A stretch of 62,032 nucleotides of DNA from Knoellia sinensis KCTC 19936. GTDB lineage: Bacteria; Actinomycetota; Actinomycetes; Actinomycetales; Dermatophilaceae. The DNA is taken from contig NZ_AVPJ01000020.1 in NCBI RefSeq assembly GCF_000768705.1, positions 1 to 62,032 of the forward strand, written 5' to 3'. The position numbers and the translations under genes were made by a program. Below the pieces are notes generated by a model. It saw only the letters and a list, made by a program, of their open reading frames with translations. It was not told the DNA's origin and did not search any database. This document shows, piece after piece, positions 2,300 to 53,908 of the stretch; positions within the stretch are counted from its first letter, which is position 1; every line of letters starts with the position of its first letter.

Positions 2300-2324
2300 C
2301 GTATGCCGTCCGCCCACCTCCCGC
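2300..2324. repeat. 25-bp intergenic repeat, copy 1
   Basis: These 25 bases, beginning CGTATGCCGTCCGCC, recur exactly in inverted orientation at 50121-50145 between two unrelated genes. A 15-base core also recurs at 8374-8388. All three copies are intergenic and contain the genome-wide octamer GTATGCCG. Confidence 0.7.
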
Positions 2325-2330
2325 TTCCCC

Positions 2331-2382
2331 CGCAACGTCAGCGTCAACGGCTCCTAGAGCAACCGTTCACGCTGACGTTGCG
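2331..2382 (-). terminator. hairpin overlapping the pfp stop codon
   Basis: Inverted repeat CGCAACGTCAGCGT / ACGCTGACGTTGCG with a nearly matching extension; arms about 20 bases with one mismatch. The right arm overlaps the last codons and stop of pfp, so it is probably that gene's terminator. Its interior resembles the hairpin at 15593-15636. Confidence 0.55.
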
Positions 2383-3575
2383 TGCCCGATGGACGTTCGG
2401 AGTTCGGTGAACCAGTCGACGGTGGTGTCGAACGCCTTGCCTCCGGCGATGCGCGGGAACTCGACGGGGCGCATCTCGCCGTCATGCTCCTCGTCCTCGC
2501 CGATGACGCCGGACTCCCCCCGGAGCGCGGCGTCCACGGCGAGCTCGGTGCAGCGTCGGATGAGGGCGAGGTCCTCCTCGTTGGCAGCGGCCGACCGCGA
2601 GAAGTAGCCGGACTTCTGGACCATGACCTTCTCCGCACCGAGGCGTTCGGCGAACTGCTTGCCGAACCACGCGCCCGGATTGACCTTGTCGAGCTGGACG
2701 TGGCCGAACGGATCGACCGGCACCTCCTGACCGGCGGCCTCCATCTCGGCCACGACCTCGCTCACGCCCGCGCCCTCGGAGAGGAAGATGTTGACGCACC
2801 CGAGCTCGTCCATGACTGCCTTGAGCCGTGCCGACTCGGCCGCGAGGTCGATCGGTGACTCGGGCACGAAGACGGCGTGCACGTCCCAGCGGCGCGAGTC
2901 GAGACCGAGGTCGGGAAGCCACTGCTGCTGCGCCACCCACGCGTGGTGACGACGCGCGGTCTCAGCGGTGAGCCAACCACAATGCCGCCCCATGACCTCG
3001 TGAATGATGAGCATCCGCGGGTTGGAGGAGTGCTCGGCAAGGACGTTGCGCGCGAAGATCGCCCCCTGCTCCGCCGCCGTCCAGGCACCGAGTGACTGGC
3101 GGATCGGCACGACGTCGTTGTCGATCGTCTTGGGCAGACCGACAACGGTGAGCGGATAGTCGTGGTCCGCAAGGTAGGCCGCGAGGTCGGCCGCCGTCGT
3201 GTTCGTGTCGTCGCCACCGATCGTGTGCAGGACGTCGACGCCATCGGCCGTGAGCTGCTCGGCGGCGACGTGCAGAGGGTTCTGGCCCTCCCTGACGAGG
3301 CCCCGCCTGACGCAGTCCTCGACATTGGTCAGCTTGACCCGGCTGTTGCCGATCGGGGAGCCACCGAACCCATGGAGCAGGCCCGCGCCCTCACGCACTG
3401 CGGGTGTCACCTCCACCGAGCGGCCGGTGAGCAGGCCGGCATACCCGTTCAGGTAGGCGATGATGCGCACGTCGGGTGCCACTGCGGTGTAGCGCTCGAT
3501 GAGTCCGCCGACGGCGGACGACAGGCAGGGCGCGAGGCCACCTGCGGTGAGCAGGGCGACGGTCTGGACTGGCAT
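2367..3575 (-). CDS. pfp: pyrophosphate-dependent phosphofructokinase
   Basis: A phosphofructokinase of about 402 residues that phosphorylates fructose 6-phosphate to the 1,6-bisphosphate in glycolysis. The N-terminal substrate-binding core reads LLTAGGLAPC. The GGDDTNTTA motif carries Asp at the position which, in this family, selects pyrophosphate over ATP (ATP enzymes usually have GGDGS). The catalytic loop PKTIDNDV and the GRHCGWL motif follow. The ATG at 3575 is used; an in-frame TTG four codons upstream (3587) is equally open, and neither has a clear ribosome site. The gene stands alone. Confidence 0.9.
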   Translation of the reverse strand: MPVQTVALLTAGGLAPCLSSAVGGLIERYTAVAPDVRIIAYLNGYAGLLTGRSVEVTPAVREGAGLLHGFGGSPIGNSRVKLTNVEDCVRRGLVREGQNPLHVAAEQLTADGVDVLHTIGGDDTNTTAADLAAYLADHDYPLTVVGLPKTIDNDVVPIRQSLGAWTAAEQGAIFARNVLAEHSSNPRMLIIHEVMGRHCGWLTAETARRHHAWVAQQQWLPDLGLDSRRWDVHAVFVPESPIDLAAESARLKAVMDELGCVNIFLSEGAGVSEVVAEMEAAGQEVPVDPFGHVQLDKVNPGAWFGKQFAERLGAEKVMVQKSGYFSRSAAANEEDLALIRRCTELAVDAALRGESGVIGEDEEHDGEMRPVEFPRIAGGKAFDTTVDWFTELRTSIGHATSA

Positions 3576-3654
3576 GACGTCAGTCAACCAGTGTGACGAC
3601 CGCCACAGCAGCCCCAGCCCGAGGTACGGACGCCTCAGGCGGAGACAGTCGGCG

Positions 3655-4647
3655 TCACTCGCAGGGACGGAAGACGACTGCCGGTGGGTCCTTGCGCACG
3701 GCCTGCGGCTTGGGGAGCTCGGCGACTGGAGTCACGGTCTCGAACTTGTTGCCGATGATGACGTCGATCGTCATGTTGTCGCGCGACACCTCCTTGAGCA
3801 CCGAACCCTTGATGTGCCGGGCGACGAGTGCCGCTGCGAGGTCGGCATCAGGTCCGTGGCGGATGACCGCGACGTCATCGGGGAGGAACGAACGGTCCGG
3901 GTCGTTGCCCTGCTTGCCCGGCTTGAAGCCACGCGCCGCGAGTTCGTTGAGAGCCGTCTTGGCCAAGCCGGAGCGCCACGTCGTGTTGTAGACGTTGACG
4001 GTGAAGGACTTCTGGCTCGGCGGCTTCGGCGGCGGTGCCGGGAGCATTCCGGTGAACTCGCCGCCGATCACGAACGAGACCGAGGTGCCGGCGCGTCCGT
4101 CGTACTCGAGCTCGGCGCCCGCGATCGTCTGGGCGAGGAGCAGGGCCTGATCGAGCCCCTCCTTGCCGTGGAAGATCTTGGCCGGCGCCTTGACATAGAG
4201 GGTCCGGGGGGCGCCGGACATGTCGACGACGTTGAAACCCCGACGCGTGAGGTTGCGACCCACGCTGTGAGCAGCCCCGTCGAGGCCGGCCGCATTGAGG
4301 ACGGTCACCTTGAACGACCCGGCGGCCGGTGCGAGGACCTTGACGGGCTGGCAGGCCGGCGGGGGGGGCTCGTTCTTCATGAGACCGGTGCCGTATGCCG
4401 TGGCGATGCTGGCCGTGCCCAGGATGACGGCCGGGATGGTGATGAACGCGGCGAAGCGGCGGAACTGGTAGCGGCGCCAGATCTGGTCGTCGGAGAGGTG
4501 CTCCTGCGCGCGTGCCCGCTCCAGGAGCTCCTTGTGCACGGTCTCCCGGGTCTTGCCGACCCCGCGACTGGCGAGGTGATGGGCGGCCTTGGCCGTGCGG
4601 GCAGGGAGAGGCGCCTTCTCGGACTCGGACTTCCGATCCCTGAACAC
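3655..4647 (-). CDS. membrane-anchored protein with two LytR_C domains
   Basis: About 330 residues: a basic cytoplasmic N-terminus, one membrane segment (about 67-92), then two LytR C-terminal type domains outside the cell. The first begins SFKVTVLNAAGLDG and the second SFTVNVYNTTWRSG, with the typical L..RGF pattern in each. LytR_C domains often accompany LytR-CpsA-Psr ligases that attach glycopolymers to peptidoglycan; here no ligase domain is present, so a wall-binding or accessory role is inference. The start is GTG 4647 because GAGG lies about 7 bases upstream; GTG 4653 is too close to it. A second single-domain relative lies at 50547. Confidence 0.75.
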   Translation of the reverse strand: MFRDRKSESEKAPLPARTAKAAHHLASRGVGKTRETVHKELLERARAQEHLSDDQIWRRYQFRRFAAFITIPAVILGTASIATAYGTGLMKNEPPPPACQPVKVLAPAAGSFKVTVLNAAGLDGAAHSVGRNLTRRGFNVVDMSGAPRTLYVKAPAKIFHGKEGLDQALLLAQTIAGAELEYDGRAGTSVSFVIGGEFTGMLPAPPPKPPSQKSFTVNVYNTTWRSGLAKTALNELAARGFKPGKQGNDPDRSFLPDDVAVIRHGPDADLAAALVARHIKGSVLKEVSRDNMTIDVIIGNKFETVTPVAELPKPQAVRKDPPAVVFRPCE

Positions 4648-4967: not shown

Positions 4968-6038
4968 TCAGAGTGCCGCGGCGACGAGCTCGGCAGTCTG
5001 GAGCATGTTGAGCGCAGCGCCCTTGCGCAGGTTGTCACCGCACACGAAGAGGTCGAGCGTTCGAGGAAAGTCGATGGCCTGACGCATCCGACCGACGAAG
5101 CGCGGGTCCGCCCCGACGATGTCGACCGGCGTGGGGAACTCGCCCTGCTCCGGGTCGTCCATGACCACCACCGCTGGCGCCTCGACGAGCGCCTGACGTG
5201 CCTTGTCGACGGTGATCGACTTCGCGAACGTCGCGTGCACCGACACCGAGTGGGTCGACACCACGGGCACCCGGACGCAGGTCGCCGACACCCGCAGGTC
5301 CGGCATGCCCAGGATCTTGCGAGTCTCCTGGCGGATCTTCGACTCCTCCGAGCTCCACCCGTCACCGACGTGCGACCCGGCGAACGGCAGGACGTTCAAC
5401 GCGAGTGGGCCACCGAACATGCTCGGTCCCAGCTCGTGCTCGATGGCTCGGCGGACATCGCCGGGTCGCATGCCCAGCTCGCGGTTGCCCCCAACGAGGG
5501 CGATCTCGTCGTGCAGCCGAGACATGCCCGCGCGGCCGAGACCCGAGGCGGCCTGGAAGCTCGTGACGACGAGTTCGGTCAGCTGCCACTGCGCGTGCAG
5601 GACGGCAAGCACGTCGATCATCGTCATGACTGTGGCGCCGGGGTTGGCGATGATGCCCTTGGGCCGGTCGTGGACGGCCTCCGGGTTGATCTCGGGGACC
5701 ACCAGAGGGACGTTCGGGTCGCGACGGAACGTCGGGCTGTTGTCGATGACCACGGCACCGCGCTCGACGGCGACCCCGGCCCAGTTGGCCGAGATCTCCG
5801 GGGGGATGTCGACCACGGCGACGTCGATGCCGTCGAAGAACTCGGGGGTCAGGGCCTCGACGGTGAGATCCTCGCCGGCCACACGGCATACGGAACCAAC
5901 GTCCTCGGCGCCCGCGGCGAGGCGCACATCGCCCCAGAGGTGACGACGGACGGGAAGCACGTCGCGCACGACAGTGCCGACCGCTCCAGTCGCGCCGACG
6001 ATGGCAAGTGTGGGAGCGGCAGTGGTCACGAGGGTCAT
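4968..6038 (-). CDS. asd: aspartate-semialdehyde dehydrogenase-like protein lacking the catalytic Cys
   Basis: A 356-residue Asd homologue, full length and in the usual place behind lysC. It has the NADP-binding GATGAVG motif (15-21), VVIDNS (97-101), the SATCVRVPV stretch and the C-terminal DNLRKGAALN signature. The enzyme normally makes a thioacyl intermediate on the Cys of ANPNCTT. Here the motif reads ANPGATVMTM (131-140), with Ala135 where that Cys belongs; the bases on either side are in clean frame. The His of the THS segment and the rest look normal. It may be an inactive or regulatory paralogue, with a true asd elsewhere, or use another residue. A sequencing error would have to change several bases. 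Confidence 0.8.
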   Translation of the reverse strand: MTLVTTAAPTLAIVGATGAVGTVVRDVLPVRRHLWGDVRLAAGAEDVGSVCRVAGEDLTVEALTPEFFDGIDVAVVDIPPEISANWAGVAVERGAVVIDNSPTFRRDPNVPLVVPEINPEAVHDRPKGIIANPGATVMTMIDVLAVLHAQWQLTELVVTSFQAASGLGRAGMSRLHDEIALVGGNRELGMRPGDVRRAIEHELGPSMFGGPLALNVLPFAGSHVGDGWSSEESKIRQETRKILGMPDLRVSATCVRVPVVSTHSVSVHATFAKSITVDKARQALVEAPAVVVMDDPEQGEFPTPVDIVGADPRFVGRMRQAIDFPRTLDLFVCGDNLRKGAALNMLQTAELVAAAL

Positions 6039-7350: not shown

Positions 7351-7501
7351 GTGGCACTCCCATGCGGGTGGTCGCGGGCGAACGCGGGCGGGTGATGGTC
7401 GCCAGCGAGTCTAACGACGCGCGGTGGTCACCGATCCTGCGCCCGTATGCCGGTCTGCTGCCTCCGATGGTCAGCTCGCCTCTGCGCCCTGAGCCTCTCG
7501 A

Positions 7502-8314
7502 TCACGTCGCCGAGCCGGCCACCTCGGGTTCGGTGAGGTTGGCCCCCAACCCCTCCAGAACGTTGGACAGCTCGGCGCGCGAGTAGTCGCGGTGCTCAGT
7601 CGTGCGATCCGGCCGACGCACGGACACCCCATCGAGGCTGAGCGTGGTGACGTTCGACCCGCCGTCAGCGTCCCGCCCGAACCGCGTGCACATGAGCGTC
7701 GACCGGAAGTGCGTGCGCGGGTGGGTACTCGTCCAGAGATGGCCCATCTCGACGTCGACGGGCTGCACTGGGAGGTCGTCCATCGTGTGCATGTATTCCC
7801 AGTCGTCGTGGACCCAGCGGTCCAGCGCCCACGACCGGCCCTCGCTGACCCGGCGCACCCGATGCCGCCATCCCGAGTGCGTGGCTTCGGCGCCGTCGAC
7901 CAACGGGATCGGGCCGAGCGGCGGGCGACCGATGCCGGGGTCGACCATCAGCGGGCTGCCGTCGAGGTCCACGACCAGGACGAAATGAGTCCGTGGACTC
8001 GTCGCGACCGCGCCGACGCGCGCGAGGTGACGGGTCACGGCATACCCAAGTCGTTCGAGAACGGCACCGAAGAGGGTGGCGTGCTCGAAGCAGTAGCCGC
8101 CCCGCCCGCGACCGACGAATTTCTGCTGCACCGCCTCGAGCGCGACTCCGGGGTGGGTCTCGAGCAGCACGTCGAGGTTGTCGAACGGGAAGGTCTCGGC
8201 GTGAGCAGTCTGGAGCCGCTCGAGGGCCGCGAGGCTGGGCGGCTCTGCGGTGACGCCGGTGCGCACGAGGTAGGCATCGAGGTCGAGCCGGTCGACGGTC
8301 CACGGATCGCTCAT
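7502..8314 (-). CDS. nat: arylamine N-acetyltransferase
   Basis: A 270-residue NAT that transfers acetyl (or other acyl) groups from CoA to arylamines. The catalytic triad is readable as Cys75 in RGGYCFEH, His110 in SPRTHFVLVV and Asp125 in MVDPGIG, the normal spacing. The ATG at 8314 is chosen because the open frame upstream overlaps the divergent ABC gene and is Arg-rich. Physiological substrate unknown; mycobacterial NAT affects lipid synthesis, but nothing here shows that. Confidence 0.88.
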   Translation of the reverse strand: MSDPWTVDRLDLDAYLVRTGVTAEPPSLAALERLQTAHAETFPFDNLDVLLETHPGVALEAVQQKFVGRGRGGYCFEHATLFGAVLERLGYAVTRHLARVGAVATSPRTHFVLVVDLDGSPLMVDPGIGRPPLGPIPLVDGAEATHSGWRHRVRRVSEGRSWALDRWVHDDWEYMHTMDDLPVQPVDVEMGHLWTSTHPRTHFRSTLMCTRFGRDADGGSNVTTLSLDGVSVRRPDRTTEHRDYSRAELSNVLEGLGANLTEPEVAGSAT

Positions 8315-8404
8315 GGACCGATCACACCACCTCAGGTGCACCTGAGATCCAATCGTGAGTCGAATGCGAATCCCGTATGCCGTCCGCCGCCTACCGTGGG
8401 CGCC

Positions 8405-9336
<932 letters not shown>

Positions 9337-10500: not shown

Positions 10501-10574
10501 GACTTTGTGCCCCATTGGGACATGTTCGACCGGCCGAAGGCCGTCCGACACGTGTCCCAATGGGGCACAAAGTC
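10501..10574. repeat. long perfect palindrome, family A copy 1
   Basis: Perfect 21-base arms at 10501-10521 (GACTTTGTGCCCCATTGGGA plus C) and 10554-10574 surround an inner stem CGGCC-GAA-GGCCG. It sits exactly between the convergent stops of the ABC permease and the DUF5063 gene, so it can act as a bidirectional terminator. A second copy with the same core and inner stem is at 27366-27438, and a relative at 23024-23090. Confidence 0.85.
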
Positions 10575-12616: not shown

Positions 12617-13300
12617 TCAGTCGTCGGGGTCGTCGGAGGCCGGGCGCTCGTTGTAGGCGTCGACCCGTTCCTGCCCGGTCAGCGTCGCGATCGAGTCCAT
12701 GACGTCGTCGGTGAGCTGGCGGCGGGCACGGCCGGCGGGCAGACCGGCATACGTCGAGGGCTGGATCGGTGACCCGAACGCGATGGTGACGTCAGCCATC
12801 CGCAGCCCACGCGCCCCCACGGGCTGGACCTTGTCGGTGCCGATGAGCCCGACCGGGACGACCGGCACGCCCGCCGTGAGTGACAGGAACGCGACGCCGG
12901 TCCGACCGCGATAGAGCCGACCGTCGCGCGAGCGCGTGCCCTCGGGATAGATGCCGAACGCCTTCCCCGCGCGCAGCACCTCGAGTGCGAGGTCGAGGGA
13001 GTCCTTGGCCGCACCTGAACTGTCGCGGTCCACGGGGATCGCGTCTCCCGACTCCATGAAGCCGCGGACAAACCGACCTCGGATGCCCGTGCCCGTGAAG
13101 TACTCCTTCTTGGCGAGGAAGGACACCTTGCGGGGAGCGGCGACCGGGATCGCGAACGAGTCGATGAAGGACAGGTGGTTGCTCGCGAGCAGGACGCCTC
13201 CGGTCTTCGGAACGTGCTCCTTGCCGACGATCGTGGGCCGCCAGATGGCGTGCGCGAGCGACATCATCGCGGTGCGACCGACCCAGTAGTAGGTGCTCAC
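12617..13300 (-). CDS. plsC: 1-acyl-sn-glycerol-3-phosphate acyltransferase
   Basis: A 227-residue PlsC-type acyltransferase that makes phosphatidic acid for membrane lipids. The catalytic HX4D motif is NHLSFID (His42, Asp47) and the glycerol-phosphate binding motif YPEGTRS is at 118-124. A single weak hydrophobic stretch is present at the N-terminus. Its GTG start overlaps the dnaX stop by four bases, an unusual operon for this gene, though plsC paralogues are common in actinobacteria. Confidence 0.87.
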   Translation of the reverse strand: MSTYYWVGRTAMMSLAHAIWRPTIVGKEHVPKTGGVLLASNHLSFIDSFAIPVAAPRKVSFLAKKEYFTGTGIRGRFVRGFMESGDAIPVDRDSSGAAKDSLDLALEVLRAGKAFGIYPEGTRSRDGRLYRGRTGVAFLSLTAGVPVVPVGLIGTDKVQPVGARGLRMADVTIAFGSPIQPSTYAGLPAGRARRQLTDDVMDSIATLTGQERVDAYNERPASDDPDD

Positions 13301-15522: not shown

Positions 15523-15592
15523 GGGGTCCAACGTAGTCGGCGGGAAGGACAGCCGGTATGCCGCGTGGTCACCACCCGGCATACTCTCGCTT

Positions 15593-16336: not shown

Positions 16337-17297
16337 CGCGATGACCGCTCGCTTCGCAGAACGGCTCGGGTCGGCGCGCCCGGTCGCCGCCGCGGCCGTC
16401 GTCACCTCTCGCCCCGAGGGTGGATTCGACACCGAACTCGCCCATGTCGGCCCCGGCGCCGACGGTGATTACGAGATCGGCTCCATCAGCAAGGGGATCA
16501 CGGGGCTGCTCTATGCCGACGCCATGGACCGCGGCGAAGTGGCGCCCGACGCGACCCTCGCCGATCACCTGCCCCTCGCCGGGACCGCGGTCGGTGGCGT
16601 GACGCTCGCGTCGATCGCCACCCACGAGTCCGGACTTCCCCGTGTGGCCTCCGGCCTCGAGACCTGGCGCCGAACCTGGGAGTTCATGCGGCACGGCACG
16701 AACCCCTATCGCGAGGACCTCGACCAACTCGTCGAGCAGGCCCGATCGGTGAGGCTCCGCGCGCCCAGGCACCGCTACTCGAACCTCGGATTCGAACTCC
16801 TCGGTCACGCCGTGGCCGAGGCGGTGGGAGTTCCGTATGCCGTCCTTGTCCGTTCCCGGATCGCCGAACCTCTCGGGCTGGATCCCTTCTACGTCCCGAT
16901 GTCCGAGGCAGACCTGCTGCGCACCGCCGTCCGCGGGCGTAGCCGTCGTGGTGGCAACCGACCACCGTGGGTGAGCGAGGCGATCGGCCCAGCGGGCGGC
17001 ATACGGGCATCCGTCGAAGCAATGGCGGGTCTGACGCGGGCGCTGCTCGACGGTTCGGCGCCGGGCGTGCGCGCGCTCGATCCGGCTGTGCGAGTAGGGC
17101 GTTCGTCTCACATCGGCATCGCCTGGCACACGATGAAGGTGCGCGACCGCGACGTCACGTGGCACAACGGAGGCACCGGCGGCTTCCGCTCATGGATAGG
17201 CGTGGACCGGGCTGCGGGCCGGGGCGTGGTCGTCCTCTGCGCCTCGGCCGCACTGGTGGACGGCATCGGACTCGCACTGCTCGTCCCTCGCCGATGA
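16329..17297 (+). CDS. serine hydrolase of the beta-lactamase/DD-peptidase fold
   Basis: A 322-residue class C-like serine hydrolase. The nucleophile motif is SISK (Ser52, Lys55), the second motif is YSN (150-152) and the third is HNGGTGG near residue 280. There is no signal peptide, so it should act in the cytoplasm unless exported otherwise. The start overlaps the ABC ATPase stop by 8 bases and its own stop overlaps the next start by four. Coupling a cytosolic hydrolase to an exporter suggests processing or detoxifying the exported compound, which is inference. Confidence 0.8.
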   Translation: MTDAMTARFAERLGSARPVAAAAVVTSRPEGGFDTELAHVGPGADGDYEIGSISKGITGLLYADAMDRGEVAPDATLADHLPLAGTAVGGVTLASIATHESGLPRVASGLETWRRTWEFMRHGTNPYREDLDQLVEQARSVRLRAPRHRYSNLGFELLGHAVAEAVGVPYAVLVRSRIAEPLGLDPFYVPMSEADLLRTAVRGRSRRGGNRPPWVSEAIGPAGGIRASVEAMAGLTRALLDGSAPGVRALDPAVRVGRSSHIGIAWHTMKVRDRDVTWHNGGTGGFRSWIGVDRAAGRGVVVLCASAALVDGIGLALLVPRR

Positions 17298-32252: not shown

Positions 32253-32262
32253 TCGGATCGGA

Positions 32263-34488: not shown

Positions 34489-34553
34489 GGTTCCCAACTC
34501 CTCATTGGCGGCCGAAGCCTCGGTGTGCGGTCGTTGTGCAGCATCCGAGGAGC

Positions 34554-34610: not shown

Positions 34611-34712
34611 CTGTCGCGCAGCCTGTGCTCGTCGGGCAGTGGAATCGGCCGCACGACAGCCGATCCCGATGTGCAAGGGCGCAGGACTGCCCAAGCGAGG
34701 AAGGGAAGAGCA

Positions 34713-36419: not shown

Positions 36420-36426
36420 CCTCGCG

Positions 36427-36939
36427 ATGAAGGTGCACAAGCCCCTTCGGATGTCCCCGCGTGTGGGCACGGCCCTGGCGATCCTCATGCTGGTCGTCGG
36501 CGTCTCCCTGGTCCGGGCCTTCGTGGCCGTGCCCGTGCGGGTCGCGTCGGCCAGCATGGAGCCCACCCTCGGCACGGGCGACGTCGTCCTGGTGTCGCGG
36601 ACGACGCCGCGGATCGACGACGTGCAGCGATGGGACCTCGTCGTCTTCGACGACCCCTCGAAGCATCGCCGGACCATCAAGCGGGTGATCGGGCTCCCGG
36701 GCGAGGCGATCGTGGTGCTCGACGGCGTGCTCCACATCGATGGCGAACCGGTCAAGGAGTCATGGGTCGACCCGGCAACGGTGGACGGCTCCTTCACTCG
36801 AACCTTCCACGTCCCCGACGACGAGGTCTTCCTGCTGGGGGACAACCGGGGCAACTCCGTCGACTCCCGCGACTTCGGTTCTCTCCCCGCAGCCGCCCTC
36901 GAGGGCCGGGTGGTGGTGAAACTCCTGCCCCTCTGGTGA
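36427..36939 (+). CDS. type I signal peptidase
   Basis: A 170-residue signal peptidase I with one N-terminal membrane helix (about 13-35). The catalytic Ser43 is in SASMEPT and the general base Lys85 in RRTIKRVIGLPG; the C-terminal GDNRGNSVDSRDFG box is present. It is short, as for Gram-positive SipS-type enzymes. Being coupled to the oxidase and near the large secreted protein, it may be dedicated to cargo of this cluster. It is the last gene before the right-hand junction at about 36.98 kb. Confidence 0.9.
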   Translation: MKVHKPLRMSPRVGTALAILMLVVGVSLVRAFVAVPVRVASASMEPTLGTGDVVLVSRTTPRIDDVQRWDLVVFDDPSKHRRTIKRVIGLPGEAIVVLDGVLHIDGEPVKESWVDPATVDGSFTRTFHVPDDEVFLLGDNRGNSVDSRDFGSLPAAALEGRVVVKLLPLW

Positions 36940-36976
36940 CCAGCCGCCGCGCGGAGGCGGCGCGGACGAGCCGCCC

Positions 36977-38704: not shown

Positions 38705-40074
<1,370 letters not shown>

Positions 40075-42871: not shown

Positions 42872-42959
42872 TGGCGGAGGATAGGGGATTCGAACCCCTG
42901 AGGGCGTTAACCCAACACGCTTTCCAAGCGTGCGCACTAGGCCACTATGCGAATCCTCC
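42872..42959 (-). tRNA. tRNA-Ser (anticodon GGA)
   Basis: An 88-base tRNA on the minus strand with a long variable arm and an encoded CCA. The acceptor GGAGGAT pairs with ATCCTCC, the anticodon loop is TTGGAAA, and the T-loop reads GGTTCGAATCC. It reads serine codons UCC/UCU. Confidence 0.95.
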
Positions 42960-43084: not shown

Positions 43085-44995
43085 ATGACCACCGACGCCT
43101 ACGCGGCGGCATACGCCCAATCTCTTGAGGACCCGGACGCCTTCTGGGGCGAGGCTGCGCACGCCATCGAGTGGATCACTCCCCCGACGACGGTCCTCGA
43201 CAGCACCAACACGCCCCTCCACCGCTGGTTCACCGGCGCCACCCTCAACACGTGCTTCAACGCCCTTGACCGACACGTGCGCGACGGCCGCGGCGACCAG
43301 CCCGCGCTCATCCACGACAGCCCGGTCACCGGCACGCAACAGACCATCACGTATGCCGGCCTGCTCAGTCGCGTGGCGACCTTCGCCGGGGCGTTGGCGA
43401 GCCTGGGCGTCGAGAAGGGCGACCGCGTCGTCATCTACATGCCCATGGTCCCCGAGGCCGTCGTCGCGATGCTCGCCTGCGCGCGGCTGGGCGCCATCCA
43501 CTCGGTGGTGTTCGGCGGCTTCGCACCGGCCGAGCTCGCCGCACGCATCGAGGACGCGCAGCCCAAGGTCGTCGTCGCGGCGAGCTGTGGGATCGAGCCG
43601 ACCCGTGTCGTCGAATACAAGCCAATGCTCGACGCGGCCCTCGATCGCAGCACACACAAGCCCGAGTCGGTCGTTGTCTTCCAGCGAGAGCAGGCCCTTG
43701 CGGCAGTCGGTGAGCGCGACACGGAGTGGGAGGAGATGACCTGGGACGACCTCGTCGCCGGTGCCGCACCGGCCGACTGCGTCGAGGTCGCGGCGACTGA
43801 CCCGCTCTATGTCCTCTACACGTCCGGCACGACCGGCCGCCCCAAGGGAATCGTCCGCGACAACGGTGGTCACGCCGTCGCACTGCGCTGGTCGATGGGC
43901 AACATCTATGGCATCAACCCGGGCGACGTGTGGTTCACGGCGAGCGACGTCGGGTGGGTCGTCGGCCACTCCTACATCGTCTATGCGCCACTGCTCACCG
44001 GTGCGACCACCGTTCTCTACGAAGGCAAACCGGTCGGCACCCCTGACGCCGGCGCCTTCTGGAGACTCATCGCGGAGCACAAGGTGCGGGCCATGTTCAC
44101 GGCGCCGACGGCATACAGAGCAATCAAGCGCGAGGACCCGAGCGGCGCGCTGATCGCCCAGCACGACATCTCCTCACTGGAGACGGTCTTCCTCGCAGGC
44201 GAGCGGCTCGACCCGGACACCTACGAATGGGCCACCAAGGTCCTCGGGGTTCCCGTCGTCGACAACTGGTGGCAGACCGAGACCGGGTGGCCGATCGCGG
44301 CGAATCCCCGTGGGCTGCAACCGATGCCGATCAAGCCCGGTTCCCCGACGGTTCCCATGCCCGGGTATGCCGTCGCGACCCTCGACGAGACCGGCTCACC
44401 TCTCCCGGCCGGCGAGGAGGGCGCCATCGCGATCCGCTTGCCGTTGCCTCCGGGCACGTTGCCGACGTTGTGGGGTGATGACCAGCGGTTCGTCGACGGC
44501 TACCTGTCCACACCGCCCGGCTACTACGCCACGGGTGACGGCGGGCTCGTCGACGAGGACGGCTATCTCTATGTCATGGGCCGTACCGACGACGTGCTCA
44601 ATGTCGCCGGCCACCGGCTTTCGACCGGGTCGATCGAGGCAGCACTCGCGGGCCATGCCGACGTCGCCGAGTGCGCCGTCATCGGCGTCGCCGACGAGCT
44701 GAAGGGGCAGTTGCCACGTGGTCTGGTCGTCCTCAAGGGCGGCGTCGACGGCTCGGGCGCCGAGGGTGGGCGGATCTGCGCTGAGTTGGTCCAGCGGGTG
44801 CGCGACGAGGTCGGCGCCGTCGCCGCCCTGCGCCAGGTCGACATCGTCAGCGCCCTGCCCAAGACGCGCTCCGGCAAGATCCTGCGCAAGACGATGCGCG
44901 AGATCGCCGACGGGCGCACGCCCAACGTGCCCGGCACCATCGAGGACGCGTCAGTGCTCGAGACCCTGACGCCGGTCCTGCGCCCGCCCGCCTAG
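43085..44995 (+). CDS. prpE: propionyl-CoA synthetase
   Basis: A 636-residue acyl-CoA synthetase of the acetyl/propionyl-CoA ligase family. It has the AMP-binding core YTSGTTGRPKGIVRDNGGH (the VRDNGGH tail is characteristic of PrpE), the WWQTETGWPI motif, DRTDDV-type hinge (GRTDDVLNVAGHR) and the C-terminal acetylatable Lys in PKTRSGKIL. It activates propionate, and probably acetate, with CoA. ATG 43085 starts MTTDAYAAAYAQS. No 2-methylcitrate cycle genes are nearby. Confidence 0.92.
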   Translation: MTTDAYAAAYAQSLEDPDAFWGEAAHAIEWITPPTTVLDSTNTPLHRWFTGATLNTCFNALDRHVRDGRGDQPALIHDSPVTGTQQTITYAGLLSRVATFAGALASLGVEKGDRVVIYMPMVPEAVVAMLACARLGAIHSVVFGGFAPAELAARIEDAQPKVVVAASCGIEPTRVVEYKPMLDAALDRSTHKPESVVVFQREQALAAVGERDTEWEEMTWDDLVAGAAPADCVEVAATDPLYVLYTSGTTGRPKGIVRDNGGHAVALRWSMGNIYGINPGDVWFTASDVGWVVGHSYIVYAPLLTGATTVLYEGKPVGTPDAGAFWRLIAEHKVRAMFTAPTAYRAIKREDPSGALIAQHDISSLETVFLAGERLDPDTYEWATKVLGVPVVDNWWQTETGWPIAANPRGLQPMPIKPGSPTVPMPGYAVATLDETGSPLPAGEEGAIAIRLPLPPGTLPTLWGDDQRFVDGYLSTPPGYYATGDGGLVDEDGYLYVMGRTDDVLNVAGHRLSTGSIEAALAGHADVAECAVIGVADELKGQLPRGLVVLKGGVDGSGAEGGRICAELVQRVRDEVGAVAALRQVDIVSALPKTRSGKILRKTMREIADGRTPNVPGTIEDASVLETLTPVLRPPA

Positions 44996-45016: not shown

Positions 45017-45940
45017 GTGCAGGGAGTCTTCACCGGGTTCGCGACGATCGGCGTCGTCATCGCCGTCGGCGCCCTGCTCGCCCACCTGAAGATCGTCGAC
45101 CTCACCGCCCAACGGGTGCTGTCGCAGGTGGCGTTCTTCGTCGGTTCGCCGGCGCTCATGATTGTGACCCTGAGTCGTGCTGACGTGCGCAACGTGCTGT
45201 CGGCGAACCTCGTCGCGACGACGATCGGGGTCATCGTCCCCGTCGTGATCTATGTCCTGTGCGCCCGCTTTCTCTGGCGCCGAAGCCTCGGTGACGGGAC
45301 CATCGGAGCCCTCTCCGCGGCATACGTCAACGCCGGAAACCTGGGTATCCCGGTGGCGAGCTACGTCCTCGGCGACGCAGCCCTCGTGGCACCGACACTG
45401 CTGCTCCAGCTCATCGTGCTGCAGCCGATTGCGCTGGCGCTGCTGGACACTGACGCCTTGGGTCGCTCCCCGTCGTTCGTGCAATTGGTCAGCCGGCCGT
45501 TCCAGAACCCCCTCACCGTCGCGTCGCTCATCGGCGTGGTGCTGTCGCTCACAGGGTGGACGCTGCCCGACTTCGTGGGGAACCCGCTCGAGTTGCTCGG
45601 TGGGGTCGCGGTGCCAGCCATGCTCATCGCCTACGGCATTGCCCTGCGCCTCGGTCCCGGGCTGGGCGCGGCCGGCTCTGTGGCCGAGTTGGCGACGACA
45701 TCGCTCCTCAAGCTGATCGTCCAACCCCTTGTCGCGTATGCCGTGGCGCGCTTTGCGCTCGGAGTCGAGGGTCATGCTCTGCTCGCCATCGTCGTGACGG
45801 CGGCACTCCCCACGGCGCAGAACATCTTCGTCCACGCGACTCGCTACGACCGGGCGACCGTGCTCGCACGCGACACGATCCTCATCACGACGATGGGGTC
45901 CGTCCCGGTCATCCTGCTCATCGCTGCCCTCCTCGGCTGA
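45017..45940 (+). CDS. AEC family transporter
   Basis: A 307-residue membrane protein with ten predicted helices in two halves, the auxin efflux carrier (AEC) fold. Typical features are LSQVAFFVGSPALMIVTL in the first half, the AAYVNAGNLGIPVASYVLGD substrate-site loop (split: YVNAGNLGIPV) and TAALPTAQNIFVHATRY near the end. Bacterial members carry malate and other organic acids. The start is GTG 45017. The gene upstream is prpE, which may hint at organic acid use. Confidence 0.85.
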   Translation: MQGVFTGFATIGVVIAVGALLAHLKIVDLTAQRVLSQVAFFVGSPALMIVTLSRADVRNVLSANLVATTIGVIVPVVIYVLCARFLWRRSLGDGTIGALSAAYVNAGNLGIPVASYVLGDAALVAPTLLLQLIVLQPIALALLDTDALGRSPSFVQLVSRPFQNPLTVASLIGVVLSLTGWTLPDFVGNPLELLGGVAVPAMLIAYGIALRLGPGLGAAGSVAELATTSLLKLIVQPLVAYAVARFALGVEGHALLAIVVTAALPTAQNIFVHATRYDRATVLARDTILITTMGSVPVILLIAALLG

Positions 45941-46872: not shown

Positions 46873-47268
46873 ATGATCAGCCTCGATCTGGCACGGCGGC
46901 TCGCCCACGAGGCGGGCGTGCTGTGGCAGCCGGCACCCGGCGATCGGTTCGTCGTCGACGCCGAACTGCTCACCAGCGAGGTCTTCTGGGTCAGCCAGCT
47001 CACCGTCGAACCGCAGCACTTCGCCGACCAGACGGTGCTCGGCTTCAACGGGACGACCGAGTGGGCACTCGACTCGGTGAGCCTCGACCAGGCGGTCTGG
47101 TTGCCGCGCGAGGACCAGCTCCGTGAGTTGCTCGGTGACCGGCTCGAGTCGCTGCACCGCTCGGGCGACGGCTGGGAGGTGACGTTTGCCCGGGACGAGA
47201 GCACCCGGCATACCGTGAAGGATCCTGACGTCGAGTGCGCCTACGCGAAGGCGCTCCTGACGCTGTGA
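46873..47268 (+). CDS. conserved hypothetical protein
   Basis: A 131-residue acidic soluble protein (MISLDLARRLAHEAGVLWQP... to the C-terminus DVECAYAKALLTL). The mixed alpha/beta pattern and the phrase VLWQPAPGDRFVV resemble actinobacterial hypotheticals encoded near housekeeping genes; no catalytic motif is visible. The ATG at 46873 is 12 bases after a purine-rich stretch. Confidence 0.6.
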   Translation: MISLDLARRLAHEAGVLWQPAPGDRFVVDAELLTSEVFWVSQLTVEPQHFADQTVLGFNGTTEWALDSVSLDQAVWLPREDQLRELLGDRLESLHRSGDGWEVTFARDESTRHTVKDPDVECAYAKALLTL

Positions 47269-47967: not shown

Positions 47968-49668
47968 TCAGCGCTTGCGGGTGCCGAAGATCGAGCGGGT
48001 GATCTCGCGGCCGATGACCGTGCCCGCTGAGCGGAGAGCCGACCGGAAGGCGCTCGACTTCACGACCTGCTCGACCAGGCCGGGGTCCTCCTTCGGTGCC
48101 GCTGTCTTCTTGGCGGGCGTCGGGTCGGGCGTCTCCTGCGGCGCACCCCCGGCGGGCGGAGTCGTCGCCGCGACGCGTGCCGCGAGCTTCTCGTAGGCCG
48201 ACTCGCGATCGGCGACCGCGGCGTACTTCGACGCGATCGCCGACCCGGCGATCGTCTGGTCGATGACCGCATCGGCCGACGGAGCCATGAGTGACTGCGG
48301 CGCGCGCATGCGGGTCCAGGCCACGGGTGTCGGAGCACCCTTCTCGGAAAGAACCGTCACGACGGCTTCACCGGTGCCGAGCGACGTGAGGAGCTTCTCG
48401 AGGTCGTACTGCGTGTGCGGGTAGGTCTTGACCGCCGACTTCATGGCCTTGGCGTCATCCGGGGTGAACGCTCGCAGGGCGTGCTGCACGCGGTTGCCGA
48501 GCTGGCCCAGCACCCCGGCCGGGACGTCGCGCGGGGACTGTGTCACGAAGAAGACGCCGACGCCCTTGGAGCGGATGAGGCGGACCGTCTGCTCGATGGA
48601 ATCCTGGAACGCCTTGCTCGCGTCGGCGAAGAGCAGGTGCGCCTCGTCGAAGAAGAACACGAGCTTGGGCTTGTCGACGTCGCCGACCTCGGGCAGGTCC
48701 TGGAACAGGTCGGCCAGCATCCACATGAGGAACGTCGAGAACAGCGCCGGCCGGTCCTGCACGCCGGGCAGCTCGAGGCACGTGATGAGGCCCTTGCCGT
48801 CGGCAGCGGTGCGGATGAGGTCGCTCGTCTCGAAGGCCGGCTCACCGAAGAACACGTCAGCGCCCTGATCCTCGAACGCGATCAGCTCACGCAGGATGAC
48901 ACCGGCGGTCGCGGACGACAGGCCACCGAGGGCCTTGAGCTCGGGCTTGCCCTCGTCGCTCACGAGGTGCTGGATCACCGCCCGGAGGTCCTTGAGATCG
49001 AGGAGCGCGAGGCCGTTCTTGTCGGCGTAGTGGAAGACCAGCCCGAGGCTGGACTCCTGGGTGTCGTTGAGCCCCAGCACCTTGGCGAGCAGCGTCGGCC
49101 CGAAGTCGGTCATCGTCGCGCGGATCGGGACACCCTTGCCCTGACCGCCGAGCGAGAGGAACTCGGTCGGGTATGCCGTGGGCTGCCAGTCCTGCCCGAT
49201 CGACGTTGCGCGACTGGCCAACTTCTCATTCGACTCACCCGGGCTGGCGAGGCCGGAGAGGTCGCCCTTGATGTCGGCGAGGAAGACGGGAACGCCCTGG
49301 CCGCTGAGCTGCTCGGCCATGAACTGCAGGGTCTTCGTCTTGCCCGTGCCGGTGGCGCCGGCGACGAGGCCGTGCCGGTTGAGGACGGCCAGCGGGATCT
49401 GCACCTGGGTGTCGGGGTGCGCCGTGTCGTCGATGACTGCCGCACCGAAGTTGAGCGCGGGACCTTCGAAGGTGTAACCCGCGCGAATCTCGTCGAGGTG
49501 GGCGTTCCCCTCGGCGGGCGTCTCGGCCGGCGTGGGCTCGGCTACGGGCGCCTCGGCCGCCGGCGTCTCGGCCGGCGCCGCCTCTGGCGCCGCAGGCGTC
49601 TCGGCCGGGGCTGCGGTGGCGTCGGTGGCGGGCTGCTCGGGCGTCACGTTCTCGGTCACCCTCGGCAC
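47968..49668 (-). CDS. HerA-like ATPase (DUF853)
   Basis: A 566-residue P-loop ATPase of the HerA/FtsK-related DUF853 family. A low-complexity Ala/Pro/Glu/Thr N-terminus (about 1-55) leads to Walker A GATGTGKTKTL (near 107-117), a conserved VFLADIKGDLSGLA segment, Walker B LVFFFDEAHLLF and the arginine-finger region RSKGVGVFFVTQSPRDVP. A C-terminal Pro/Lys tail ends SIFGTRKR. Members are thought to act on DNA, but their role is poorly known. Start GTG 49668; the tandem repeat lies directly after the stop. Confidence 0.85.
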   Translation of the reverse strand: MPRVTENVTPEQPATDATAAPAETPAAPEAAPAETPAAEAPVAEPTPAETPAEGNAHLDEIRAGYTFEGPALNFGAAVIDDTAHPDTQVQIPLAVLNRHGLVAGATGTGKTKTLQFMAEQLSGQGVPVFLADIKGDLSGLASPGESNEKLASRATSIGQDWQPTAYPTEFLSLGGQGKGVPIRATMTDFGPTLLAKVLGLNDTQESSLGLVFHYADKNGLALLDLKDLRAVIQHLVSDEGKPELKALGGLSSATAGVILRELIAFEDQGADVFFGEPAFETSDLIRTAADGKGLITCLELPGVQDRPALFSTFLMWMLADLFQDLPEVGDVDKPKLVFFFDEAHLLFADASKAFQDSIEQTVRLIRSKGVGVFFVTQSPRDVPAGVLGQLGNRVQHALRAFTPDDAKAMKSAVKTYPHTQYDLEKLLTSLGTGEAVVTVLSEKGAPTPVAWTRMRAPQSLMAPSADAVIDQTIAGSAIASKYAAVADRESAYEKLAARVAATTPPAGGAPQETPDPTPAKKTAAPKEDPGLVEQVVKSSAFRSALRSAGTVIGREITRSIFGTRKR

Positions 49669-50120: not shown

Positions 50121-50145
50121 GCGGGAGGTGGGCGGACGGCATACG
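50121..50145. repeat. 25-bp intergenic repeat, copy 2 (inverted)
   Basis: Exact reverse complement of 2300-2324, located between the DUF1801 gene and the next gene. It includes one CGGCATAC octamer at 50137. Confidence 0.7.
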
Positions 50146-51097: not shown

Positions 51098-52249
51098 GTG
51101 TCCGAAGCGCCTCTTGGCGCCCGCCCGGCGATTCGAGCCGGCGTGGCCTTCCTTGCCTCCCGTGTCCTCCTCGGACTCACCGTCCTGCTCATGGCGGCCA
51201 TCGCCGGACAGGGCGCCGTGGCTCACGAATGGGCCACCGGCGTGTGGTGGCTCGACCGGTTCTCGGCGTGGGACAGCTATCACTTCGTCCGCATCGCCAC
51301 GCTCGGCTACCTCCCACCGGGCCTGGACTGCTGCGACCAGGCGTTCTTCCCGGGTTATCCGCTCGCCATGGCTGCGCTCGCACCCATCCTTGGCGGGAGC
51401 GTGACGGGCGCCGGCCTGCTCGTCACCGTCCTCGCAAGTGGTGTGGCCGCTGCCCTGCTGTGGACCCTTGTGGCCGAGGACGCACGTGGCGGTGACGGCG
51501 CGGCTCGCCGGGCCGTCACCCTGCTCGCCGTCGCACCCGCCGGCTTCTTCCTCGTTGCCGTCTACACCGAGGCCCTCTTCCTCGCGCTCGCGCTCGGCGC
51601 CTGGCTGCTCGCGACGCGGCGCCACTGGTGGTGGGCGGGCGTGATGGCGGCGCTCGCCACCGGTGTCCGCGTCAACGGGCTGTTCCTCGCCGCCGGCCTC
51701 GTCGTCATGTATGCCGTGCAGTGGCACAAGGACGGCCGACCCCGTCCGCGCCTCGACGTTCTCGCCCTCGGCTTTCCGGCGATCAGCGTCGGCGCCTACA
51801 TGGCGCACCTCGAGTCCCTCACCGGCTCGTGGGACGCGTGGCGCGAGGCCGAGGAGCGTGGGTGGGACCGGTCGACGGCGTGGCCGTGGGAAGGCTTGGT
51901 GTCGGCCTGGCAGTCCCTGCTCGACAGCCCCAATGTGTGGCTGGCGGCGAGCCGTGCCGGCGACATCGTGGCGGTGCTGCTCGGTGTCGCGGCCTGCATT
52001 CTCCTTCTGCGACAACGGCGCTGGCCCGAACTGACCTATCTCTCCCTCACCGTGGGGGTGGTCCTCTGTTCGACCCTGTGGGTGTCAGCCCCCCGCTACG
52101 CCCTGACCTGGTTCCCCGCGTATCTCGCGGTCGCAACGATGCGCGAGTCCACGGCATACAAGCGCGTGTATGCCGTGGCGCTCGGTCTGTCTGCCGCGCT
52201 CCTGATCGCGGCCACGTGGGCGGCCGCGACGAGGCATTGGGTGGCTTGA
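51098..52249 (+). CDS. PIG-V-like mannosyltransferase (membrane)
   Basis: A 383-residue polytopic membrane protein (about nine helices). The N-terminal WDSYHFVRIATLGYLP motif in the first extracellular loop and AFFPGYPLAMAALAP fit the PIG-V/GT-C mannosyltransferase group, where the Asp is catalytic. It would use a polyprenyl-linked mannose donor to build envelope glycans. Start GTG 51098, two bases after the LytR_C stop, so the two are in one operon. Confidence 0.78.
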   Translation: MSEAPLGARPAIRAGVAFLASRVLLGLTVLLMAAIAGQGAVAHEWATGVWWLDRFSAWDSYHFVRIATLGYLPPGLDCCDQAFFPGYPLAMAALAPILGGSVTGAGLLVTVLASGVAAALLWTLVAEDARGGDGAARRAVTLLAVAPAGFFLVAVYTEALFLALALGAWLLATRRHWWWAGVMAALATGVRVNGLFLAAGLVVMYAVQWHKDGRPRPRLDVLALGFPAISVGAYMAHLESLTGSWDAWREAEERGWDRSTAWPWEGLVSAWQSLLDSPNVWLAASRAGDIVAVLLGVAACILLLRQRRWPELTYLSLTVGVVLCSTLWVSAPRYALTWFPAYLAVATMRESTAYKRVYAVALGLSAALLIAATWAAATRHWVA

Positions 52250-52325: not shown

Positions 52326-53060
52326 GTGGCCCCGTCCGGGAGTGGCAGCAAGAAGGCGCGCGCGAGCCAGCGCAACGCGTCCGACCGTGTGGCGCAGATG
52401 CGCAAGGAACAGCAGAAGAAGGACCGAGCACGCCTCTTGGCGATCTGGGGAGCGGCTGCCGTCGCGATCGCCCTCATCGTCGGCTCTGTGGCGTTTGCGG
52501 TCATTCGTGACCGGGCGAACACGCCGAGCCTCGACGCGGTCAAGTCGACCCCATACGAGGGCGGAACCCACACGCAGGAGCCGGTGACCTACAAGGAGAA
52601 CCCGCCCGTCGGCGGCGAGCACAACCCCGTCTGGCTCAACTGTGGCGTCTATGACTCGCCGGTCCCGAAGGAGAACGCCGTCCACTCGTTGGAGCACGGC
52701 GCGGTGTGGGTGACCTACCAGCCCGACCTCCCCGAGGCCGACGTCGAGAAGCTCAAGGACGTCCTCCCGGACACCTACGTCGTGCTGTCCCCCTACGAGG
52801 GCCTGCCGACTCCTGTCGTCGCCTCCACCTGGGGCCACCAGATCCAGCTCACCGGGGCCGACGACCCGCGCCTCGAGGAGTTCGTGGACGAGTACATCCA
52901 GGGTCCGGACACGCCCGAGCCCGGCGCTCTCTGCACCAACGGCACCGACGGGACCGACCAGAACGCGACGCCGCAGCTGCCTGCCAGCCCGGCTGCCACG
53001 CCGAGCGGCTCGGCCACGCCCGCGGCTCCCTCCGCGAGCCCCTCGCCGTCGGCCTCGTGA
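52326..53060 (+). CDS. DUF3105 membrane-anchored protein
   Basis: A 244-residue protein from GTG 52326 with CAGGAG upstream. After a basic N-terminus comes one membrane helix (about 36-58), then the DUF3105 domain: YKENPPVGGEHNPVWLNCGVYD, ENAVHSLEHGAVWVTYQPDL and the C-terminal PYEGLPTPVVASTWGHQ. The conserved His residues (GGEH, SLEHG) suggest metal binding. The tail is Pro/Ser/Ala-rich. Its stop overlaps the DUF305 start, a pairing often seen in actinobacteria. Confidence 0.87.
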   Translation: MAPSGSGSKKARASQRNASDRVAQMRKEQQKKDRARLLAIWGAAAVAIALIVGSVAFAVIRDRANTPSLDAVKSTPYEGGTHTQEPVTYKENPPVGGEHNPVWLNCGVYDSPVPKENAVHSLEHGAVWVTYQPDLPEADVEKLKDVLPDTYVVLSPYEGLPTPVVASTWGHQIQLTGADDPRLEEFVDEYIQGPDTPEPGALCTNGTDGTDQNATPQLPASPAATPSGSATPAAPSASPSPSAS

Positions 53061-53710
53061 CCGACACCCTCGTGAACGACCCGACGACCTCATCCCGCTC
53101 GCGGGGTGAGGTCGTCGGTCTCGCTGTGCTCCTCGGCGTGGTGTCGCTGCTCGCTGGGCTGGTGCTCGGGTGGGCCGTGTTCGGTCGATCCGGCTTCCCC
53201 CTCGACGGGTCTGCCGAGGCGGGTTTCGCACGGGACATGTCCACCCACCACGGGCAGGCGGTGCAGATGTCGCTGCTGGTGGCGGAGCGCACCGAGGACC
53301 CGGCGATCCGTACGTTCGCCAACGACATCGCGACGAGCCAGCAGCACCAGTCGGGCCAGATGTTCGCCTGGCTGAGGCTCTGGGGGCTGAAGCCGACGAG
53401 TTCGCAGCCACCGATGGCGTGGATGGGCTCGGACCACCATGGCTCCACGTCCGCGTCGGGTGACGCGGTGCCCATGCCCGGCATGGCCTCGCCCAAGGAC
53501 CTGGAGCGGCTCACGGCGGCGCGCGGGGTCGATGCGGACAGGTACTTCTTGGCGCTCATGATCGACCACCACCGTGGCGGCGTCGAGATGGCCGATGCCG
53601 TTCTCGCGCGCTCGGATCAGCAGGAGGTCGTGACACTGGCGCGCGCGATGAAGGCCGCTCAGACCGGTGAGATCACGACGATGGAGCAGATGCTCACCAC
53701 GAAATCCTGA
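53057..53710 (+). CDS. DUF305 family protein
   Basis: A 217-residue membrane-anchored protein: one N-terminal helix (about 20-42) and an extracellular four-helix DUF305 domain, with the paired motifs FARDMSTHHGQAVQM and FLALMIDHHRGGVEMAD. The HHxxA/HH residues are thought to bind copper or other metals. A His/Met-rich insert (GSDHHGS...MPGMAS) lies between. With DUF3105 it may form a metal-handling surface pair. GTG 53057. Confidence 0.87.
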   Translation: MTDTLVNDPTTSSRSRGEVVGLAVLLGVVSLLAGLVLGWAVFGRSGFPLDGSAEAGFARDMSTHHGQAVQMSLLVAERTEDPAIRTFANDIATSQQHQSGQMFAWLRLWGLKPTSSQPPMAWMGSDHHGSTSASGDAVPMPGMASPKDLERLTAARGVDADRYFLALMIDHHRGGVEMADAVLARSDQQEVVTLARAMKAAQTGEITTMEQMLTTKS

Positions 53711-53721
53711 CCGCGGGCGCT

Positions 53722-53787
53722 GCCCCAACTTTTGCTCCCCATGAGGGCGCCTGGTGGGTCCGGAGGGTTCATTTCCCTCCGGACCCT
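53722..53787. repeat. palindromic repeat family C, copy 2
   Basis: The 26 bases at 53722-53747 (GCCCCAACTTTTGCTCCCCA onwards) are the exact inverse of 12574-12599. They are followed by a strong hairpin, GGGTCCGGAGGG / CCCTCCGGACCC (53757-53787), which can end the DUF305 transcript. Confidence 0.75.
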
Positions 53788-53908
53788 TCATGTTCCCTCC
53801 GGTTGCCTTCCCGTATGCCGGGTGCTCGCCTTCGTCGCAGCCTCTCGGTCACGCGCGGGTTGGCTGCTCGATTTCGCTCCTGAGGTCTGGTTGCGTATTG
53901 TGCTTCGC

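Follow-up and report, generated by a model that had tools for sequence, protein, structure and literature searches.

An over-represented asymmetric octamer in Knoellia sinensis with features of a DNA uptake sequence

Introduction

The closest described systems are the uptake signal sequence (USS) of the Pasteurellaceae and the DNA uptake sequence (DUS) of the Neisseriaceae. In the sections cited here, the USS of Haemophilus influenzae is reported to be significantly evenly spaced and to have no orientation bias (PMC1939737), and in strain 86-028NP, 109 overlapping USS pairs are described as acting as terminators (PMC7811141). The DUS occurs in dialects within the Neisseriaceae, according to the cited part of a comparative study (PMC3630211). 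Here we describe the octamer GTATGCCG (reverse complement CGGCATAC) in Knoellia sinensis KCTC 19936. The stretch analyzed, referred to below as the window, comprises the 62,032 nt at the start of contig C13 in a genome of 3.99 Mb and 61 contigs. The analysis favors, with a probability of about 0.62, a reading in which the octamer forms the core of a recognition motif of ~30 bp, recognized as double-stranded DNA and functioning in the manner of a DNA uptake sequence.

Abundance of the octamer

The window contains 45 exact copies of the octamer, 22 on the plus strand and 23 on the minus strand, each at the place listed in the initial annotation, which had described the strands as about equal. 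That annotation had also put the random expectation at about two copies, and a zero-order model gives 2.29, a measure by which the octamer ranks first among the 8-mers of the window. Dinucleotide shuffles of the window (n = 100) yielded a mean of 0.79 copies and a maximum of 4. Genome-wide there are 2,485 copies, or one per 1.6 kb, with both orientations equally frequent (1,251 plus and 1,234 minus), while the reversed word, used as a control in the same genome, occurs 68 times (35 plus and 33 minus).

Genes were called with our own simple codon-model script, and in the codon null, synonymous codons were shuffled within genes. The genes of the window hold 40 octamers against 3.45 after shuffling (maximum 9; 100 shuffles). 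The corresponding values are 135 against 16.1 ± 4.0 for 360 kb of contig C1 and 213 against 22.8 ± 4.8 for 400 kb of the congener G003 (60 shuffles each). A codon-bias artefact was rejected, since the excess outlasts the synonymous shuffles in all three stretches. The codon-preserving null had been proposed with the initial annotation. The annotation's claim that selection acts on the DNA and not on the protein is supported by this null, by a silent T at position +19 and by the conservation of sites between species, both described below. It had also placed sites in all reading frames and in spacers. All six frames were indeed seen, but two of them account for 31 of the window's 40 coding sites, and coding sites favor the two frames with Tyr-Ala and Ala-Tyr contexts; 5 of the 45 window sites are intergenic by our gene calls.

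The extended motif

The octamer is the core of an asymmetric motif of about 30 bp, in which the 5′ flank is rich in A and the 3′ flank reads TCCGCTCACCT. In 68 intergenic copies from the same genome, the bases 3′ of the octamer read T C C G C T C A C C T, with a consensus strength of 57–78% at +9 to +13, +15, and +17 to +19, of 51% for T at +14 and of 40% for A at +16. The same sites are A-rich from −11 to −7 (34–40% against a background of 16%). The 58 intergenic sites of G003 have the same flanks in weaker form. Inverted pairs supply part of the 3′ consensus, and many single sites show it as well.

Within genes, the flanks of 231 sense-frame coding sites were compared with those of 1,027 codon-context controls. 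Specifically, T at the silent position +19 is found in 32% of the sites and 8% of the controls (p = 7e-20). T is also favored at +9 (p = 3e-7) and +14 (p = 0.002), as is A at −7 (32% against 17%, p = 6e-7), and A is avoided at 0 (5% against 25%) and at +9 (3% against 31%). The coding sites depart from the intergenic consensus at +13, where C is rarer than in the controls (39% against 52%), and show no preference at +15 and +22. One helical turn separates positions +9 and +19. Overall, the anatomy of the motif looks like protein recognition of double-stranded DNA. Where the initial annotation had gone no further than suggesting a DNA-binding protein or a methyltransferase, this anatomy suggests an element resembling an uptake sequence.

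Strand order and placement of the sites

Neighboring sites alternate between strands in 38 of 44 cases in the window and in 144 of 200 cases in 360 kb of C1, values reached by 0 of 20,000 label shuffles in each. The alternation arises because same-strand sites avoid each other within about 1 kb. With close inverted pairs dropped and 5,000 shuffles each, 35 of the 126 pairs closer than 1 kb in 580 kb of C1 are on the same strand, against 62.9 ± 5.7 expected, and so are 35 of 139 pairs in G003, against 69.2 ± 5.9 expected (0 of 5,000 shuffles in both). This exclusion persists with coding sites alone, and opposite-strand pairs show no avoidance. Below 500 bp the effect in C1 is weaker, with 24 same-strand pairs against 34.9 expected (28 of 5,000 shuffles). 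The congener stretches also alternate (34/46, 36/46, and 41/52), many sites being common to them, and small 20-kb samples from other motif-bearing genera gave 17/27, 8/16, and 5/12. The density of the octamer is somewhat even, with a variance/mean of 0.78 in 5-kb bins. The strands are balanced, with 97/104 sites over 360 kb of C1 and 132/145 over 400 kb of the single-contig G003, with the replication direction unmapped.

By the gene calls, and with borders included, 40 of 45 sites in the window, 138 of 201 in C1, and 219 of 277 in G003 lie within genes. Per kb, the octamer is denser between genes than within them in two of these three stretches from the genus, C1 (1.32 against 0.44) and G003 (1.01 against 0.64), and the window shows no such excess (0.76 against 0.72). 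Ten close inverted intergenic pairs were found in C1 and 11 in G003, with a spacing of 17–38 bp and one of 55. In 20 of these 21 pairs, the nearer member is 12–57 nt from a stop codon, and in position and pairing they would fit a terminator-like role.

Conservation in congeners and site-free DNA

About 60 kb around the locus was taken from each of the congeners G008, G007, and G005 and aligned with the window by matches of at least 150 bases, giving alignments of 79–81% identity over 29–34 kb; a stretch called unaligned may be absent from the congener or very diverged. Aligned window sites are intact in 24/31 cases in G008, 30/37 in G007, and 21/30 in G005 (pooled 75/98). For control 8-mers with three A/T, which overlap and hence are not independent, the proportions are 30, 27, and 27% (pooled 28%; p = 9e-8, 1e-11, and 1e-6). 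Against G003, 11 of 16 sites are intact over 22,980 aligned bases compared with 19% of controls, and six sites are specific to G003.

The sites kept in the three congeners G008, G007, and G005 are those at 3437–3444 (−), 5884–5891 (−), 7445–7452 (+, intergenic), 12745–12752 (−), 13588–13595 (+), 14400–14407 (−), 15556–15563 (+), 25436–25443 (+), 26302–26309 (−), 26769–26776 (+), 39249–39256 (−), 39922–39929 (+, intergenic), 43107–43114 (−), 43351–43358 (+), 45318–45325 (−), 45736–45743 (+), 47206–47213 (−), and the close inverted pair at 52152–52159 (−) and 52168–52175 (+). The site at 15556 likewise forms a close inverted pair with 15577–15584 (−), which is present in G008 and not in G007. 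Two of the three congeners share the sites at 17395–17402 (+), 44109–44116 (−), 44365–44372 (+), and 49171–49178 (+). One alone has those at 4393–4400 (+; G008), 38458–38465 (−; G005), and 51709–51716 (+; G007), and none has those at 18450–18457 (−), 18640–18647 (+), and 38395–38402 (−). G007 keeps the site at 20783–20790 (−), where the other two congeners are unaligned, and those at 21087–21094 (+), 21385–21392 (−), 22752–22759 (+), and 23365–23372 (−), and lacks the one at 23657–23664 (+). Further exact matches are at 2301–2308 (+, intergenic), 16835–16842 (+), 16997–17004 (−), and 50137–50144 (−, intergenic), and, within the unaligned 7.46–10.58 kb, at 8038–8045 (−), 8375–8382 (+), 8736–8743 (−), and 9273–9280 (−). 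The last site, at 53813–53820 (+, intergenic), stands before a tRNA-Ser gene and is not intact in G008 or G005.

The initial annotation had reported no octamer in 26.78–38.39 kb or past 53.82 kb; none was found in 26,777–38,394 or after 53,820, and the first 2,300 bases of the window are likewise free of it. The description of these regions as foreign is largely borne out: it fits 28.4–37.0 and 54.0–62.0 kb, which have no match in the congeners, and does not fit 26.8–28.4 and 37.0–38.4 kb, which align. The site-free stretch at 28393–36983, unalignable in the three congeners, encodes two-component and BTAD regulators, a PKD-domain protein, a multicopper oxidase, and a signal peptidase, and Pfam named no mobility gene in it. 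The second, at 53999–62032, is a genomic island at tRNA-Ser that carries an integrase, a helix-turn-helix (HTH) protein, Mrr, an Eco57I-like methylase, and a ResIII helicase, with a G+C of 0.61–0.66. In C1 the sparsest stretches, at 35.6–56.2 kb and 218–240 kb, have one inner site each, and both look like surface-polysaccharide loci from the five proteins scanned in each; another site-free gap, at 540.3–551.6 kb, has ordinary codon scores. In C1, density followed codon typicality (rho 0.26, p = 0.005) but not G+C (rho 0.03). Absence from newly gained DNA finds support in two stretches of the window and, more weakly, in C1, with exceptions in the unaligned stretch that has four sites and in the C1 gap of ordinary codon scores.

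A small signal recognition particle (SRP) RNA gene and two tRNA-Ser genes were located at 25151–25247, 42872–42959, and 53909–53998, the second tRNA-Ser bordering the island. A second repeat family consists of outward-facing TGTCCCAATGGGGCACAAAGTCG-like arm pairs about 45–63 bp apart, mostly intergenic, at 10502–10573 and 27369–27435 in the window and at 71557, 104456, 111793, 136226, 317444, 333038, and other positions in C1. This family looks like a repetitive extragenic palindromic (REP)-like or small non-autonomous element.

Distribution among Actinomycetota

A genome was counted as motif-bearing when its copy number was above 900 and no lower than 2.5 times the control. Among 58 genomes, that of K. 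sinensis included, this cut is passed by 21 of the 36 genomes (13 of 28 genera) of its own family, f1, whereas the 22 genomes from other families have 167 copies at most. Three family genomes below the cut (G024, G026, and G027) are weakly raised, with 196–293 copies. In a survey of 396 genomes of the order, 22 of 34 family members have more than 500 copies and none of the 362 others more than 180. In a survey of 246 genomes of the phylum, the three family members alone stand out, the next genome having 386 copies in 7.5 Mb against a control of 176. We infer that the family is the Dermatophilaceae: among named contigs, the aspartokinase of the window has Luteipulveratus (77%) and Intrasporangium calvum (75%) among its best matches, and GTDB joins in this family both of these genera (Dermacoccaceae and Intrasporangiaceae at NCBI). 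A single origin of the GTATGCCG state is unsupported, as a ComEC tree of 24 of the 36 family genomes needs five gains or losses, at least four of them forced by starred branches.

A second family, f19, is rich in another word, GGATGCCG, with more than 1,000 copies in 31 of 33 genomes, more than 1,500 in 25, and a maximum of 4,831. This word has a high background. Of the 363 genomes outside f19, 10 have more than 1,000 copies, seven of them being of 7–9 Mb; the highest count is 1,481 in 9.4 Mb, and none exceeds 1,500. In the f19 genome G073 the excess is codon-aware (641 against 125). Dialects in related taxa are thus present, since GGATGCCG occurs in f19 and also in two members of the own family without GTATGCCG abundance, G024 and G033 (16 and 20 per 20 kb against an expectation of about 2). 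In 14 named genomes the degenerate word GKATGCCG was counted. Four Cryobacterium genomes have 1,642–1,865 copies (control 264–304) and Planctomonas 1,327 (control 195), at 0.37–0.55 per kb. Kribbella pratensis has 1,648 against 333 in 8.4 Mb and Mumia 709 against 130, at 0.17–0.20 per kb; because of these two, the ratio to the control is not decisive alone. Intrasporangium calvum has 1,982 against 847. Cryobacterium and Planctomonas loci of 13.5–21 kb contain 9–14 copies of GGATGCCG and 0–1 of GTATGCCG, and because both genera belong to the Microbacteriaceae, f19 would be that family.

Words were also counted in samples, with two stretches shorter than 2 kb dropped from each of two sets of 20. 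In the weak test provided by one genome and 20-kb samples from each of 13 other families of the order, no comparable word was found except a GAGGACTCCGAG repeat in G042 (L244), at 12–14 per 20 kb. Like CACGGGCTACTCAACC in G026 (L068; 6–7 per 20 kb) and a repeat of about 27 copies around CAGTTCGACGGT in G030 (L070), it is possibly a tandem array or other element. In the Cryobacterium loci L158, L160, and L184, AGCGGATG and ACGGATGC are also enriched (14–21 per 21 kb) and may be a shifted dialect. In G012 (L077), GTATGACG and GTATGGCG are enriched beside GTATGCCG, which would fit a relaxed position 6 in that genus. The motif-poor f1 genome G009 has 1,336 copies of GGATGCCG against 310 of the control genome-wide and little in its 20-kb samples, a possible weak or eroding dialect. 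Among the matches listed in open-licence literature, none described GTATGCCG or any uptake sequence from Actinomycetota.

Uptake and recombination machinery

The K. sinensis genome possesses an operon of ComEA (SLBB + HHH) and ComEC, together with a Tad locus encoding TadA, a TadB/C-like protein with a VWA domain, a ParA-like ATPase, RcpC/CpaB, TadE, and two Flp pilins. In Micrococcus luteus, transformation needs Flp pili from two tad loci, as stated in the part of the source cited (PMC4322843). RecC was found in none of nine genomes of the genus. In the family it shows a trend opposite to that of the motif, being present in 7 of 15 motif-poor and 3 of 21 motif-bearing genomes.

An uptake-sequence-like element and its alternatives

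The GTATGCCG element resembles the USS and the DUS in most of the features computed and may be regarded as a candidate, not a proven member, of their class. A receptor at the cell surface or in the envelope, belonging to the competence machinery (a Tad/Flp pilus with ComEA/ComEC), would prefer fragments bearing the motif, so that DNA of motif-bearing kin would be imported and recombined more often. Molecular drive, selection or both would then build up and hold sites in the shared genome and not in fresh islands. Because the motif is asymmetric and its same-strand copies exclude each other over about 1 kb, we hypothesize that recognition is probably directional. Each site would serve the DNA on one side, and a nearby site in the same orientation would add little where an opposite one would add more. 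The excess of the word, its extended motif, its placement, conservation, and distribution, the different word of relatives, and the machinery genes are observed; the existence of the receptor, the raising of uptake by the motif, the transformability of the species, and the role of direction are all things that we infer.

Several observations weigh against such a role. The machinery is no guide to the presence of the motif, as ComEC and TadE are each present in 57 of the 58 genomes, motif-poor relatives included, and were set aside as non-discriminating predictors. N_methyl pilins and PilM (PilM_2) occur in none of the nine genus genomes. The known receptor class, a type IVa minor pilin (ComP or the predicted ComN), is therefore absent and a ComP-type receptor was rejected for the genus; no candidate receptor was found. 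Single-mismatch forms of the octamer reach 0 to 2.6 times expectation, which is little for drifting drive. In the f19 genome G073, same-strand GGATGCCG sites show no exclusion over distances of up to 2 kb (at 3 kb, values as low came from 14 of 1,000 shuffles), and the sites are no denser between genes. A gene-end bias of the Pasteurellaceae type was not found (pooled sense against antisense, p = 0.31), the sole single set with a half-gene bias being the C1 sense sites, with 80 of 135 in the first half (p = 0.04). The stretch at 7.46–10.58 kb, unaligned in all three congeners, holds four octamers, although DNA from motif-bearing kin would look like that. Lastly, uptake in H. influenzae is described as independent of motif orientation in the cited section (PMC1939737).

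As a Chi-like recombination signal, the octamer would be read on one strand by a helicase-nuclease that switches from destruction to repair, each break needing a correctly turned site per side. Such a signal would account for directional reading, for even spacing on each strand, and for absence from foreign DNA. It is nonetheless an unlikely explanation, and the RecBCD form is disfavored, given the missing RecC (0/9 in the genus, 3/21 motif-bearing against 7/15 motif-poor in the family) and a Chi control unlike the octamer. In 450 kb of E. coli K-12, Chi is skewed 77:17 between strands, lacks same-strand exclusion (ratio 1.01 below 1 kb), and has flanks nearly devoid of information (at most 0.14 bit), whereas the strands here are balanced (97/104 and 132/145, with replication direction unmapped). 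Somewhat less credit still is due to chromosome organization, in which the motif, alternating in orientation and recurring about every 1.6 kb, would be bound by a nucleoid or segregation protein. The somewhat even density (variance/mean 0.78) and the alternation of strands would suit it, but 15 of 36 family genomes fall below the cut, three of them weakly raised, which is hard to reconcile with an essential organizer, and inverted pairs after genes better match uptake motifs.

Restriction and methylase sites are normally not over-represented, and neither kind resembles a motif of ~30 bp with weak flanks. These properties make it improbable that a methyltransferase or defence nuclease reads the octamer as a self mark, whether in restriction-modification or in an exclusion that spares marked DNA, even if its patchy distribution and its absence from an island that bears restriction genes speak for one. 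In addition, the methylase found among the 20 window proteins scanned lies in that island, which is unaligned to congeners that keep the sites. Least credible of all is a repetitive mobile or terminator element of the REP type, or an artefact of codon usage. Some inverted pairs do follow genes, but most sites are genic and synonymous shuffles leave only 3 of 40, 16 of 135, and 23 of 213.

Beyond the uptake-like role of GTATGCCG itself, a broader scheme can be put forward tentatively, at slightly worse than even odds. Two families of one order of Actinomycetota may have evolved uptake-sequence systems of their own, with GTATGCCG and GGATGCCG as dialects and a receptor not of the type IVa kind (Tad/Flp or ComEA-linked), the system of the GTATGCCG genus being directional, with each site serving about 1 kb on one side and strands alternating. 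If the uptake role is true, the self marks by which some unrelated bacteria select free DNA for import would extend to a Gram-positive lineage whose uptake machinery is of another kind, and uptake signals would arise repeatedly without being tied to type IVa pilins. The genera would then provide a series of dialects and a template for finding the receptor; site density could serve to assess gene gain, and laboratory actinobacteria might be transformed more simply. Strand exclusion, if explained, would show the direction of uptake or recombination shaping genomes.

Comparison with known systems

Chi (GCTGGTGG), which acts with RecBCD, is like the present word an over-represented asymmetric octamer, but here there is no RecC and no strand skew, the flanks are wide, and sites on the same strand exclude each other. 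HIP1 of cyanobacteria is a very frequent and lineage-limited octamer. It is a palindrome, in contrast to the asymmetric GTATGCCG motif with its extended flank.

The USS (AAGTGCGGT plus flanks) is closer. In the sections of the sources cited, it shares with the Knoellia motif a short asymmetric core without orientation bias, a spacing near 1 kb, an extent of ~29 bp, an excess outside genes, and close opposite pairs at gene ends, which in the USS act as terminators (PMC7811141, PMC1939737). The two differ in that the word is unrelated, the host belongs to the Gram-positive Actinomycetota, Tad/Flp takes the place of type IVa pili, and same-strand exclusion occurs here. The gene-end bias described for the Pasteurellaceae in the cited part of PMC2346458 was also not found here.

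The DUS, given as ATGCCGTCTGAA in the cited portion of the same paper (PMC2346458), has dialects among related genera and is missing from some family members, as here. Its letters ATGCCGTC recur in the intergenic consensus of the present motif, gtATGCCGTCcgctc. The functional core CTG, so designated in the section cited (PMC3630211), is unmatched here, however, and ComP-type pilins are absent. Because the essential CTG of the DUS is not kept, the shared ATGCCGTC is probably due to chance or convergence. Overall, the Knoellia element departs from both the USS and the DUS in its receptor class and its strand exclusion, and its depletion in foreign DNA agrees with them in part.

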